Origin: an uncultured Verrucomicrobia subdivision 3 bacterium
GTDB lineage: Bacteria; Verrucomicrobiota; Verrucomicrobiia; Limisphaerales; UBA11358
DNA: 35,291 bases
Assembly: GCA_903827955.1 (NCBI GenBank)
Contig: CAIKKJ010000057.1
Coordinates: 1-35,291 of the forward strand
Reading direction: 5' to 3'
Under the pieces are notes generated by a model that saw only the letters and a list, made by a program, of their open reading frames with translations, was not told the DNA's origin and did not search any database. Positions within the stretch are counted from its first letter, which is position 1, and each line of letters begins with the position of its first letter. This document shows, piece by piece, positions 29,521-34,334 of this stretch. Made by a program: the position numbers and the translations under genes.

Positions 29521-29717
29521 GTGCTGCCGTTGGCGTTACCTTGGATTGGCGTTCCAAAAAATCTCAACTCGAACGAAGTTGCAACGGGGGTTATTAGGGT
29601 GGGATTTAATCTCATCAAGATTGATGGTATTTAGATGCGACACTCGGCGTAGCCGCTGCGCGTCAACACCGGTCTGAATGATTGCCATCCTTTCAGGGTG
29701 GTGATCTAATATTTGAA

Positions 29718-30158: not shown

Positions 30159-30245
30159 TTACTGCATCCCCTTCACAAATGCCTCGACGACCTGCGGGTC
30201 GGCGAGCGTGGAGACGTCGCCGATCTGGTCGGTCTGGTTCTCGGC
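30159..30245 (-). pseudogene. Displaced copy of the 3' end of acs (28 codons plus stop)
   Basis: This 87-base segment aligns without gaps to the true acs 3' end (30791-30877) at 78 of 87 positions. Read on the minus strand it encodes [20 protein letters not shown] then EAFVKGMQ and a stop; the intact gene ends EALVKGKQ. Six of the nine differences are silent, so the copies diverged as coding alleles rather than by random decay. The similarity ends abruptly at 30245, next to the toxin gene. The two copies are direct repeats that bracket the toxin-antitoxin pair. Confidence 0.85.
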
Positions 30246-30253
30246 AGTTGATT

Positions 30254-30565
30254 TCATAATTTCAACCAGCCACGCAGGTGCGCATCAAGTATGCTGACAT
30301 CATTCGGTGAAAGTTGTCCGACAATTTTCAGGACAAGGTTTTCTTCGACTGTGGCGAGTTGGGCTTTGACGCCGGAAGGCACGTTCAGCCCCGCCGCCTG
30401 CCAGCCTGCGAGTTTGAAATCTGTATTCGCAAGCACGGAGGCAATGGGAACGAGAAATAAATCAGAACCATACTGGCCAATGACTATCGCCGGACGGACT
30501 TTGCGGGTGGTCAGATCCGTGAACGGAATCGGCAAGAGAACGACGTCATTTCTTGAGCAGTTCAT
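30254..30565 (-). CDS. MazF/PemK-like endoribonuclease toxin
   Basis: 103 residues. The N-terminus NDVVLLPIPFTDLTTRKVRPAIVIG is the classical MazF/PemK beta-barrel opening with the conserved R-P-A-(I/V)-V-I strand. FLVPIASVL and LNVPSGVKAQLATVEENLVLKIVGQLS follow the family order, and the length is typical. MazF-type toxins are sequence-specific mRNA interferases inhibited by a co-encoded antitoxin. The ATG at 30565 lies inside the 3' end of the antitoxin gene (20-base overlap), the usual arrangement for tight co-translation. The module is enclosed by the two acs 3' ends. Confidence 0.85.
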   Translation of the reverse strand: MNCSRNDVVLLPIPFTDLTTRKVRPAIVIGQYGSDLFLVPIASVLANTDFKLAGWQAAGLNVPSGVKAQLATVEENLVLKIVGQLSPNDVSILDAHLRGWLKL

Positions 30566-30749
30566 TGTAGACGTCGTCCGCGTCGTTGTCCCAAGTCTTG
30601 AGCAGTGAGGCTTCGGAGAGTTTCATCCATGCTTCATGTTCGGTGTCGCATTCAATTGTGACGCGGACATGAGCGTTTTCGGGCAACGCGAGCGGTTTGG
30701 ACAAACGCAGTTTGCCCTGCTCGTAGATGGCTTCAACGGTTGTCGTCAT
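30546..30749 (-). CDS. Antitoxin of the MazF-like pair
   Basis: 67 residues. The first half (VEAIYEQGKLRLSKPLALPE) resembles the AF2212/DUF104 antitoxin family, a small swapped-hairpin DNA-binding fold. The C-terminal half, AWMKLSEASLLKTWDNDADD then VYNELLKK, is the toxin-neutralising tail common in antitoxins of PemK/MazF-like toxins. It is the first gene of the pair and overlaps the toxin start by 20 bases. It should bind its own promoter, which must lie in 30750-30790 between it and the acs stop unless it is transcribed from acs. Confidence 0.85.
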   Translation of the reverse strand: MTTTVEAIYEQGKLRLSKPLALPENAHVRVTIECDTEHEAWMKLSEASLLKTWDNDADDVYNELLKK

Positions 30750-30790: not shown

Positions 30791-32764
30791 TTACTGCTTC
30801 CCCTTCACCAGCGCCTCGACCACTTGCGGGTCGGCAAGAGTGGAGACGTCGCCGATCTGATCGGTCTGGTTCTCGGCGATCTTGCGCAAGATGCGGCGCA
30901 TGATTTTACCAGAGCGCGTCTTCGGCAGGCCGGGTGCGAATTGGATTTTATCCGGCACGGCGATGGCACCGATCTCTTTGCGGACGTGCTGGGCGAGTTC
31001 TTTCTTCAACTCTTCGCTTTCGTGGATGCCGTCTTTCAAGGTCACGAACGCGTAGAGCGCCTGGCCCTTGATGTCGTGCGGCATGGGCGCGACGGCGGCT
31101 TCGGCGACTTTCGGATGACTAACGAGGGCACTTTCGACTTCGGCAGTTCCGATGCGGTGGCCGGAGACATTGACGACGTCGTCCACGCGGCCGAGCAACC
31201 AGTAGTCGCCATCGGCATCAATGCGGCAACCGTCGCCGGTGAAATACATATCCTTGAACGTGGCGAAATAGGTATTGATGAAACGGTCATGATCGCCCCA
31301 CGTCGTGCGCATGATGCCGGGCCACGGTTTCTTGATGCAAAGTTTGCCGCCTTCGTTCGGTTTGCACTCGGTTCCGTCATCGCGGAGCACCACGGGTTCC
31401 ACGCCGAAGAAGGCACGTCCGGCGCTGCCGGGTTTGAGTGTGTGCGCACCGGGCAAAGGCGTGATGAGATGACCACCGGTCTCGGTCTGCCACCACGTGT
31501 CCACGATGGGGCAACGTTCGTGGCCGATGTGTTTGTAATACCACATCCACGCTTCGGGATTGATGGGTTCGCCCACGGAACCAAGCACGCGGAGCGAACT
31601 CATGTCATACTTCGCGGGAAATTCATCACCGAGGCGGATCAGCGCGCGGATGGCGGTGGGCGCGGTGTAGAAGGAATTTACTTTGAACTTCTCGACGATT
31701 TTCCAGAGGCGTCCGGCGTCGGGATAGGTCGGCACGCCTTCGAACATGAGCGTGGTGCCGCCGTTGCAGAGCGGGCCGTAAACGACGTAGCTGTGGCCGG
31801 TCACCCAACCGATATCGGCGGTGCAGAAGTAAACGTCGTTCTCGTGGATATCAAAAACGTAGCGATGCGTGATGGCGCTCCAGAGCAGATAGCCCGCCGT
31901 GCTATGGACGACGCCCTTGGGTTTGCCTGTGGAACCGGAGGTGTAGAGAATGAAGAGATAATCTTCGGCCTTCATCTTTTCCGCCGGGCATTCGGCGGAA
32001 GCCTTCGCCATCAAATCGTGATACCAGACGTCCCGTCCGGCGACGATGTTGCACGGCTCGTCATTGCGTTTCACGACCACGACCTTCTGGATGCTCGGCG
32101 TGTGGGTGAGCGCGTTGTCCGCAAGCTGCTTGAGCGCGAGCGATTTTCCGGCGCGGAGCGAGACGTTCGCGGTGATGAGCAATTTGCATTCGGAATCATT
32201 GATGCGGCCCGCGAGTGAATCAGAGCTGAAGCCACCAAACACGATCGAGTGAATCGCGCCGATGCGCGCGCAGCCGAGCATCGCGACGGCGGCTTCGGGA
32301 ATCATCGGCATGTAAATCGCGACGCGGTCGCCCTTGGTGACGCCGAGCGATTTGAGGACATTGGCGAACTTGCAGACATCCTTGTGAAGTTCGGCGTAAG
32401 AGATGTGCTTTACATCTTCCTCGGGTTCGCCCTGCCAGATGATGGCGGTCTTGTTGCCGATGGTCTTGAGGTGGCGGTCGAGGCAATTAACGGTGACGTT
32501 CAGTTCGCCATCTTCAAACCAAGTGTGCTTGATGGTGCGTTTGTCAGTGCTCCAATCAAACTTGCGCGCGTGCGTCGGTTGTTTAAACCACTCTAACGTC
32601 TGCGCCTGTTCCATCCAAAAATTTTCCGGTTCGTTGACGGAGCGCGCATACATGGCGTCGTATTGCGCGGAATTGATCAGCGCGTGCTGGATGACCTCGG
32701 GCGATGGCGGAAAAGTTTTTCCGGCCTGTTGCAATGACTGGGTGGAGATGGCTTGGTTGCTCAT
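30791..32764 (-). CDS. acs: Acetyl-CoA synthetase (AMP-forming)
   Basis: 657 residues, normal for Acs. It has the P-loop-like [15 protein letters not shown] (A3), [10 protein letters not shown] (A5), [23 protein letters not shown] (A7-A8) and [11 protein letters not shown], where Lys620 is the catalytic lysine that Pat-type enzymes acetylate. It converts acetate, ATP and CoA to acetyl-CoA; here that could serve acetate released from acetylated xylan, although the genes are far apart. It starts at ATG 32764. The last 87 bases, including the stop, exist in a second copy at 30159-30245, so the 3' end seems to have been exchanged or duplicated when the toxin-antitoxin pair arrived. The protein itself is complete. 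Confidence 0.97.
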
Positions 32765-32831
32765 TTGGTTTGGTAAATACGGTGGCAGAATTTCCGAAAA
32801 TAATTCGGCGCTGTCAATCGCGGGAAAATAT

Positions 32832-32957
32832 TCAGCGGGTCAGCTCGGTAAAGTTTTCAGCAGTTGCGGGCCGATCCGCTGGCTTTTCTCCCGCGAAACT
32901 GCGTGGCGAAAGCATTGTCGCGCTTGGCCGAAACCACGTTGCCGCCAGTCACGTGCG
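32832..32957 (-). pseudogene. Frameshifted remnant of a second hisH 3' end
   Basis: On the minus strand the segment reads ...RDNAFATQF, then after a one-base loss EKSQRIGPQLLK, then after a second one-base loss NFTELTR and TGA. This is the HisH C-terminus, which in the intact gene reads RDNVYATQFHPEKSQKVGLQ then LLKNFVDLTS. By hand the core (32851-32923 against 33736-33810) is about 84% identical with two single-base gaps. The residue changes (VY to AF, KV to RI, VD to TE) are those of another HisH allele. No start or N-terminal part remains. It lies 67 bases upstream of the acs start, in the same orientation as hisH. Confidence 0.8.
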
Positions 32958-33039
32958 CCGTGGGTTCGCCTGTCCTACGGCATGATTAAACTTAAAGGTT
33001 TGCCGCCTAAATAAATTCCGGCAACATCCGGCCAGCTTT

Positions 33040-33720
33040 ATGCCCGCGCACAAAATCATCTTCCTGTTCGACGTGGACAATACGCTGCTCGACAACGACC
33101 GCGTCACCGTCGATCTCAAGCGCCATCTCCAGCGCGAAGTCGGCCCCGAACGCGCGCAGCACTACTGGACCATCTTCGAGCAGTTGCGCGGCGAACTTGG
33201 CTACGCCGATTACCTCGGCGCGTTGCAACGCTACCGCATCGAACATCCGCGCGATCCGAAGCTGCTCACCGTCTCAAATTTTCTCATCAACTATCCCTTC
33301 GCCAACCGCCTTTATCCAAACTCGCTCGACGCCATCGAACACGTCAAGCAATGGGGACCCGCCGTCATCCTCTCGGACGGCGATGTCGTCTTCCAGCCGC
33401 GCAAGGTGGAACGTTCCGGCCTGCTCGAGGCCGTGGACGGCAATGCGCTCATCTACGTCCACAAGGAACACGAACTCGACGACGTGGAGCAACGTTTCCC
33501 GGCGGAACATTATGTGATGATGGACGACAAGCTGCGCATCCTGACCGCGATGAAAAAAGTCTGGGGCGACCGCCTGACCACCGTCTTCCCGCGCCAAGGA
33601 CATTACGCACTCGACCCCAAAGCCGTCGCTACCTATCCGCCGGCGGACATCACGCTGGAACGCATCGGTGAACTGGTGAAATACGATTTGCCTGTGTTGC
33701 TTATCAGGGGGAAAAATTAA
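33040..33720 (+). CDS. HAD-superfamily hydrolase
   Basis: 226 residues. Motif I is FLFDVDNTLLDND (nucleophile Asp11, Asp13), motif II is AVILSDGD (Ser112) and motif IV is YVMMDDK (Asp162-Asp163). Phosphatase or phosphoglycolate-type activity is possible; the substrate cannot be told. The insert between motifs I and II is the helical C1 cap type. The gene is the only rightward one in this part of the window and its stop overlaps the hisH stop (33717-33720, TTAA). It lies between the intact hisH 3' end and the hisH remnant at 32832-32957, so it may have come in with that rearrangement. Confidence 0.85.
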   Translation: MPAHKIIFLFDVDNTLLDNDRVTVDLKRHLQREVGPERAQHYWTIFEQLRGELGYADYLGALQRYRIEHPRDPKLLTVSNFLINYPFANRLYPNSLDAIEHVKQWGPAVILSDGDVVFQPRKVERSGLLEAVDGNALIYVHKEHELDDVEQRFPAEHYVMMDDKLRILTAMKKVWGDRLTTVFPRQGHYALDPKAVATYPPADITLERIGELVKYDLPVLLIRGKN

Positions 33721-34334
33721 CTCGTCAGGTCGACGAAGTTCTTCAGCAGTTGCAGGCCGACCTTCTGGCTTTTCTCGGGGTGAAATTGCGTGGCGTAAAC
33801 ATTGTCGCGCCAGACGGACGACGCGAAGTTATCGCCGTAATCCGTGCGCGTGGCGACGATGGACGCATCCACCGGCTGCGGATAAAAGCTGTGCACGAAA
33901 TAGACGTAGCTGCCATTCGCGATGCCACGATAGAGCGGGCATTCCGGCCGCACGATCTCCAATTGGTTCCAGCCGATCTGCGGAATCTTGTGTCCGGGCT
34001 TTTCGGTGAAGCGGACGACACTGCCTTTGAAAACGCCGAGTCCGGCGGCGCAGGAATTGAATTCCTCGCTCCGCTCGAACAACGCCTGATAGCCGACGCA
34101 GATGCCGAGAAACGGTTTGCCGGTCTTGATGAAATCGCGCGAAGCTTCGAGCAGTTCCTGTTTGCGGAGCGCGTTGATGCAATCGTCGAACGCGCCGACA
34201 CCGGGCAGCACGAGCCCGGAGGCGTCGCCGATCTCATCGGGGCGCTGCACGAGGCGCACGTCTGCACCGACCTTGAGCAGCGATTTGTGGACGCTGCGCA
34301 AATTTCCCGAACCGTAATCAAGCAAGGCAATCAT
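33717..34334 (-). CDS. hisH: Imidazole glycerol phosphate synthase, glutamine amidotransferase subunit
   Basis: 205 residues, normal length. The class I amidotransferase triad is complete: Cys79 in FLGICVGYQALF, and His185 and Glu187 in ATQFHPEKSQ. DYGSGNLRSV at the N-terminus and LPGVGAFDDC (oxyanion strand) are typical. With HisF it makes IGP and AICAR in histidine biosynthesis, feeding ammonia from glutamine. HisF and the other his genes are not in the window. The gene is convergent with the HAD gene and shares stop-codon bases with it. Its 3' end has a decayed relative 0.9 kb downstream. Confidence 0.96.
   Translation of the reverse strand: MIALLDYGSGNLRSVHKSLLKVGADVRLVQRPDEIGDASGLVLPGVGAFDDCINALRKQELLEASRDFIKTGKPFLGICVGYQALFERSEEFNSCAAGLGVFKGSVVRFTEKPGHKIPQIGWNQLEIVRPECPLYRGIANGSYVYFVHSFYPQPVDASIVATRTDYGDNFASSVWRDNVYATQFHPEKSQKVGLQLLKNFVDLTS

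Follow-up and report, generated by a model that had tools for sequence, protein, structure and literature searches.

The hisH–acs interval and its duplicated gene ends

The window, by which we mean the whole stretch of DNA analysed (35,291 nucleotides of contig CAIKKJ010000057.1), belongs to a Verrucomicrobia genome that is 95% complete, designated G000. On its minus strand the order is hisH, a gap and acs, and the gap is occupied by one plus-strand gene, which encodes a HAD hydrolase. The features are given below.

33717–34334, minus strand: intact hisH, 205 aa, target gene (ORF; Pfam GATase)
33709–33810, minus strand: resident copy of the duplicated stretch, comprising the hisH 3' end and 8 bp past the stop
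33040–33720, plus strand: HAD hydrolase gene, 226 aa, the cargo, its stop overlapping the hisH stop
32995–33039, plus strand: HAD gene leader, with similar counterparts in G007, G049 and MAG_BO64 (compared by eye; left limit approximate)
32822–32970, minus strand: remnant, a decayed second hisH 3' end (by blastn to 32923, by eye to about 32970)
32765–32821, minus strand: acs leader (similarity to acs leaders of relatives)
30791–32764, minus strand: acs, acetyl-CoA synthetase, second target gene (ORF, Pfam)
30791–30877, minus strand: resident copy of the duplicated acs 3' end
30546–30749, minus strand: antitoxin-like ORF, AF2212-like (PF01954, above the Pfam cut-off)
30254–30565, minus strand: PemK/MazF-like toxin ORF (PF02452, 22.0 bits, just below the cut-off of 23.1)
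30159–30245, minus strand: duplicate acs 3' end of 29 codons, stop included

Positions 32822–32923 match 33709–33810 with 79.8% DNA identity over 104 aligned columns (blastn, E 2e-15), and the local alignment of remnant and resident scores 140, the best among 1000 shuffles being 60. Past 32923, a fainter similarity to hisH extends to about 32970 in an alignment judged by eye. Relative to the resident gene, the remnant carries two one-base deletions, and its own stop codon is a TGA at 32832–32834. Similarity to the acs leaders of relatives ends at 32818–32827, where the hisH remnant starts (9 of 29 acs loci of relatives match). At the other side of the cargo, the HAD stop (33718–33720) and the hisH stop (33717–33719) overlap in a shared TTAA at 33717–33720. 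An earlier note on this DNA had described a decayed hisH 3' end with two one-base deletions upstream of acs, a HAD gene enclosed by the intact and the decayed hisH ends, and overlapping stops of the HAD gene and hisH; all three descriptions hold.

The same note had expected the remnant to be recognisable as HisH in translation. A search with 29 HisH proteins of relatives did return it, split over different frames, with a best tblastn score of 25.8 bits (E 2e-5), the best of 50 shuffles reaching 25.0; the match at the protein level is marginal because the frame of the remnant is broken, and it is weaker than the DNA comparison. The further proposal, that the remnant stems from a different HisH allele, was not sustained: an approximately unbiased (AU) test did not reject a single clade of remnant and resident (p 0.73), and the tree in which they were held together scored higher, in an alignment of 150 columns that has little power. 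The remnant has a long branch, which fits a decaying copy.

A search of acs against its own genome revealed a second match to its 3' end at 30162–30263. The repeat (30159–30245 versus 30791–30877) is 87 bp long and 89.7% identical, begins exactly at the stop codon, and its two copies may likewise form one clade (AU test not rejecting, p 0.34). The AF2212-like and PemK/MazF-like ORFs lie side by side between the copies, abutting the acs stop, and by their families resemble a putative type II toxin–antitoxin (TA) pair of the MazEF/PemK type. Thus, each of two neighbouring genes, hisH and acs, carries a compact insert behind its stop, with its own 3' end copied beyond the insert. The arrangement at hisH is not singular, as acs with its TA pair has the same layout and such repeats are frequent around TA genes of the genus (see below).

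Downstream of the acs remnant, positions 29527–29700 recur behind acs in G059 and G027, and more weakly in G003, and look like an interspersed repeat. Two further repeat pairs in the window are not of the same kind: 12071–12159/13174–13262 are the starts of paralogous pilin-like genes, and 13978–14020/15484–15526 are internal repeats within one gene.

Identity and distribution of the HAD gene

The HAD protein matches PF00702 with 26.7 bits (Pfam cut-off 26.4) and contains FDVDNTL, which we take to be the DxDxT motif of the superfamily. It is close to a solved, uncharacterised structure (PDB 2p11, E 3.6e-98). PADLOC returned no match for it, nor for the TA pair.

The distribution of the gene is patchy. 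It was found in 3 of the 58 other relatives searched, hence in 4 of 59 genomes including that of the window, and among the others it lies near hisH in G007 alone (one of 17 hisH neighbourhoods fetched); conservation at hisH throughout the phylum, against which the earlier note had set its proposal, is not seen. In G049, a member of another family, HAD is 86% and hisH 72% identical to those of the window. Twenty further HAD matches came from genomes that include those of Verrucomicrobia, Acidobacteria, Planctomycetota, Nitrospira and Thermoleophilaceae. In G007, which belongs to the genus of the window, a 3' piece of the HAD gene is separated from hisH by 1.5 kb that contains another ORF, and upstream of the HAD gene no hisH remnant was found, nothing scoring above shuffles beyond the HAD leader. 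The G007 gene is split over two contig ends (L068 1–60, L069 1–115), perhaps through interruption by an element. The similarity of the leader (~45 bp) among genomes suggests that it probably travelled together with the cargo.

The HAD gene is not habitually flanked by repeats: no clear flanking repeat was detected at 18 other loci with HAD homologues, one of which (L133) gave a weak match (E 0.002); four more loci, at contig ends, were left out of this comparison. The earlier note had also envisaged a version of the acs–hisH interval lacking the HAD gene; relatives were searched for it and none was found, the 17 hisH neighbourhoods all being without acs.

Direct repeats around toxin–antitoxin genes of the genus

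For each of several gene families we took 30 loci among the matches listed from 40 genomes of the genus, and scored direct repeats with E up to 1e-4 that spanned the family match within 1.2 kb. Among these matches, spanning repeats occurred at 12 of 30 HicA loci and 11 of 29 testable ParE loci (30 taken), compared with 0 of 30 for glyoxalases and 2 of 30 for GNAT acetyltransferases (one a 23-bp match, the other inside a gene), control families that are widespread and not equally patchy, and for which most GNAT and some glyoxalase match ends were entered approximately. TA genes are enriched in such repeats over the controls used (Fisher p 9e-7), a value that assumes independent loci, while the TA matches are partly dependent (two HicA at purQ, two ParE at ilvD-like genes). 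Random points gave 16 of 380 (10/180 in G001, 2/93 in G000 and 4/107 at other loci). Under a stricter rule (length 45–200 bp, identity of at least 80%, spacing 300–1100) the counts were 17 of 59 for TA loci versus 0 of 60 for controls.

The TA repeats have a median length of 78 bp, with 19 of 23 falling between 46 and 120 bp, and 25 of 28 hand-picked inserts measure 449–785 bp. No common end motif or shared core was seen by eye in these 28 inserts and their junctions, in a table that omits L154, L170, L175, L188 and L197, dropped by eye from the 23 TA matches. Across the phylum (79 genomes), 7 of 30 HicA loci had spanning repeats, of 31–108 bp; since the stricter rule leaves 1 of 30, the rate for HicA outside the genus is uncertain. 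GIY-YIG genes of the genus, taken as a non-TA accessory family although many of their 30 loci resemble UvrC core genes by ORF length, had repeats at 3 of 29 testable loci, all beside tRNA genes. GIY-YIG genes with direct repeats (L087 4583–5046, L299 and L307) adjoin tRNA-Met, tRNA-Gly and tRNA-His, and the repeat at tRNA-Met contains the 3' part of the tRNA.

Longer stretches were sampled in two genomes, ~223 kb of G000 and 400 kb of G001. In the latter, eight inserts between direct repeats of 53–106 bp were judged to be of the same kind, six of them with a clear gene end; left aside were the REP-like L111, pairs of 304 bp (L127) and 82 bp (L113), and repeats located inside large ORFs or between them. 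Examples include HicAB following a MurA-type gene, a DUF5615 protein where an IF-2B-type gene starts, a cargo with no Pfam match after guaA, and a PIN protein ahead of a presumably LysR-like gene. In the sampled part of G000 one such insert was counted outside the window, between noncoding repeats, the pairs in L091 and L093 having been taken for paralogs. The insert at L097 4619–5271 lies between 110-bp palindromic noncoding repeats, and its gene, which we assume to be GxxExxY-like, stands in what appears to be a sugar transporter operon. Two other arrangements were encountered: a restriction–modification pair, N6/N4 methylase and BglII-type endonuclease, between 49-bp repeats (90%) in G019 (L073 415–2290), and, in G001 (L080 4152–6360), a duplicated hisH 5' end whose copies are 2.1 kb apart, the extra one accompanied by a 3' piece of rlmN.

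These data bear on an explanation in which hisH, or its end, was duplicated in tandem and the HAD gene was captured by chance after a deletion, so that insertion and duplication were uncoupled. Direct duplications are common in bacteria generally, and this is the sole point in its favour. Uncoupled events would hardly produce the recurrence of this layout, with a gene-sized cargo, at acs and many TA loci, and we regard this explanation as highly improbable.

Besides those of hisH and acs, the copied gene ends include those of a purQ-type GATase_5 gene, IlvD, MnmA, ALAD (hemB), a CCA-type nucleotidyltransferase, an aminotransferase and FtsK. ParE modules stand behind ilvD-like genes in G007 and G028 (L178 and L184), with a repeat covering the gene end (IlvD checked for L178). 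A purQ match was found in 38 of 40 genomes, several of these being weak cross-matches. Among 30 purQ loci fetched, a purL-like gene (recognised by eye) is directly next in five and no more than 1.5 kb away in ten, and at the others various modules or other genes follow, mostly named by eye. The purQ–purL junction is empty in five genomes and filled elsewhere by differing modules. Remnants of the purQ 3' end lie downstream in eight genomes, with two in G026, and the junction behaves as an accretion site, or hot spot, with stacked remnants (L153, L333, L331, L355 and others in L328–L357). In G027 the remnant extends 16 nt beyond the stop, and these bases agree with an empty site found in another genome; although not at hisH, this is the best evidence for the polarity of insertion.

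A hot spot of this kind could also be expected of an integrase-borne element that targets gene 3' ends, restores the gene and has since been reduced to its cargo. Genomic islands are known to integrate in gene 3' ends (tRNA genes, guaA) with restoration of the gene end, and in the present cases, too, the gene end is restored, a displaced end lies on the far side, and the guaA 3' end is one of the targets. Unlike in such islands, no integrase or fixed core was seen here: no integrase ORF lies between the copies in the window, none was noticed in the 28 hand-picked inserts, and no core shared by their junctions was visible by eye. The targets are moreover varied and include 5' ends, namely those of mnmA, hemB, the IF-2B-type gene and an aminotransferase gene. 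We therefore consider such an element very unlikely.

Probable insertion with target duplication, or import from a donor

On balance, we think it somewhat more probable than not that gene-sized modules were inserted with a long duplication of their target, the HAD gene at hisH and the TA pair at acs. The HAD gene and its ~45-bp leader (roughly 32990–33705) would have entered hisH at its 3' end as bare DNA of gene size, and the event would have duplicated a target stretch of 102 bp or more, perhaps 150 bp, made up of the end of hisH and a few bases of its 3' flank. The copy joined to the body of hisH would leave the gene intact, and the copy between the HAD gene and acs, free of selection, would decay; the same event would have taken place at acs with the TA pair. 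Most simply, nicks on opposite strands ~50–120 nt apart would allow a double-stranded fragment to be captured, after which both long overhangs would be filled in. The joining may have followed a Ku-independent route: Ku turned up in 1 of 40 genomes of the genus, in 0 of the 21 best and not in G000, which makes Ku-dependent joining unlikely. Insertion with target duplication accounts for the intact gene, the decayed copy, the gene-sized cargo and the lack of an integrase; no transposase or integrase was found between either pair of copies in the window, the HAD gene being the sole gene recognised in the one case and the TA pair the genes recognised in the other. No empty hisH–acs site was present in the 17 hisH neighbourhoods fetched, nor within 1.5 kb of acs at 29 loci of relatives, some of which end at contig ends, so that the polarity at hisH rests on analogy. 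The prevalence of TA genes may reflect addiction, as recombination between flanking repeats would remove an insert unless cells that lose it die or the repeats are no longer alike. The HAD gene is not a TA gene, and this argument has no bearing on it. What the data show directly is the duplication, the cargo with its patchy occurrence, and the enrichment at TA genes over the controls used; the polarity of insertion at hisH, the enzymology and the part played by addiction are inferred.

A different course of events is conceivable, in which a foreign hisH 3' end together with the HAD gene recombined inside hisH and its other end was joined illegitimately, with the remnant being the displaced native end. 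Such an import could proceed by homology-facilitated illegitimate recombination or through a circle that carries a gene end; the former has been proposed for arrays of type VI secretion effector and immunity genes in Vibrio cholerae, including displaced ones (PMC5361080). At hisH, five overlapping 60-nt windows located 303–63 nt before the end of the resident gene are nearest to G007 (88–97%; once tied with G013), the very genome with a HAD gene near hisH; in the last window (78–18 nt), however, G007 is outside the six nearest, over the columns of the remnant the resident gene is nearest to G014, and the G007 region upstream of the HAD gene is without a hisH remnant. At acs, the last 87 nt match G059 at 95%, while G035, the closest over the whole gene, falls to 78%; yet both acs copies have G059 as their nearest relative, and the AU tests given above separate remnant from resident neither at acs nor at hisH. 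Four of eight testable purQ remnants (G062, G028 and G026 twice) resemble the gene of another species more closely than the resident gene of their own genome, and so do the acs and hisH remnants of the window; simple duplication in place does not predict this. The purQ remnants of G027, G001, G006 and G018 have the highest identity to their own copy. Repeat lengths that cluster, and repeat pairs that are 97–98% identical (L109, L121, L191), count against import, although purQ ends are in any case 92–98% identical between many species. This likeness of purQ ends and the phylum-wide HicA count under the stricter rule lower our confidence in target duplication, and in the wider spread suggested further below, and raise it for import from a donor. 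Stretches of 87–150 nt are too short to settle the choice, and we hold import to be a serious rival, if the less likely of the two.

Insertion of genes with a long target duplication is already known for restriction–modification (RM) systems. Certain RM systems duplicate their target on insertion, over lengths that vary and are on the order of 100 bp (PMC3874152), and an RM-gene insertion with a long target duplication was described in Helicobacter pylori (Nobusato et al. 2000, Gene 259:99, via PMC1643837; the case is also cited in PMC2654758). The present cases are alike in that the insert lies between direct repeats of tens to hundreds of bp (102 bp, 80%, at hisH; 87 bp, 89.7%, at acs) and contains no transposase or integrase. 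They differ in their cargo, HAD and TA modules rather than restriction–modification genes, in that several of the repeats are ends of housekeeping genes, and in their host, a genus of Verrucomicrobia. The V. cholerae arrays (PMC5361080) share with them the new module at a conserved anchor and the stacking of displaced older pieces downstream, whereas there whole immunity genes of one system are displaced and here short ends of many unrelated genes. In Arabidopsis, a eukaryote, transposed genes are likewise flanked, more often than controls, by direct repeats of host, mostly genic, sequence, and the authors consider circles and recombination between repeats besides target duplication (PMC2869330). 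Among the matches listed in our literature searches, no title or opening of an abstract reported TA modules inserted with a long target duplication.

The main interest lies in the recurrence of gene-end duplications and not in the single case of hisH. To our knowledge, the means by which solitary TA modules of the chromosome move in the absence of a mobile element are an open question. Building on insertion with target duplication, we tentatively suggest, as a speculative reading, that TA modules and single passengers such as the HAD gene might spread in this genus as bare DNA, without a transposase and by one host-borne or dedicated mechanism that duplicates ~50–170 bp, and that the ends of genes such as purQ and ilvD might thereby become accretion sites for defence genes, because entry via duplication would be harmless and addiction would act against loss. 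The genus offers some 25–30 repeat-marked insertions at recognisable genes, together with empty sites at purQ–purL, so that both the mode of insertion and the protection of repeat-flanked DNA from loss by addiction become testable in it. In other genomes, the decayed copy of a neighbouring gene's end may serve as a simple marker for inserted modules.
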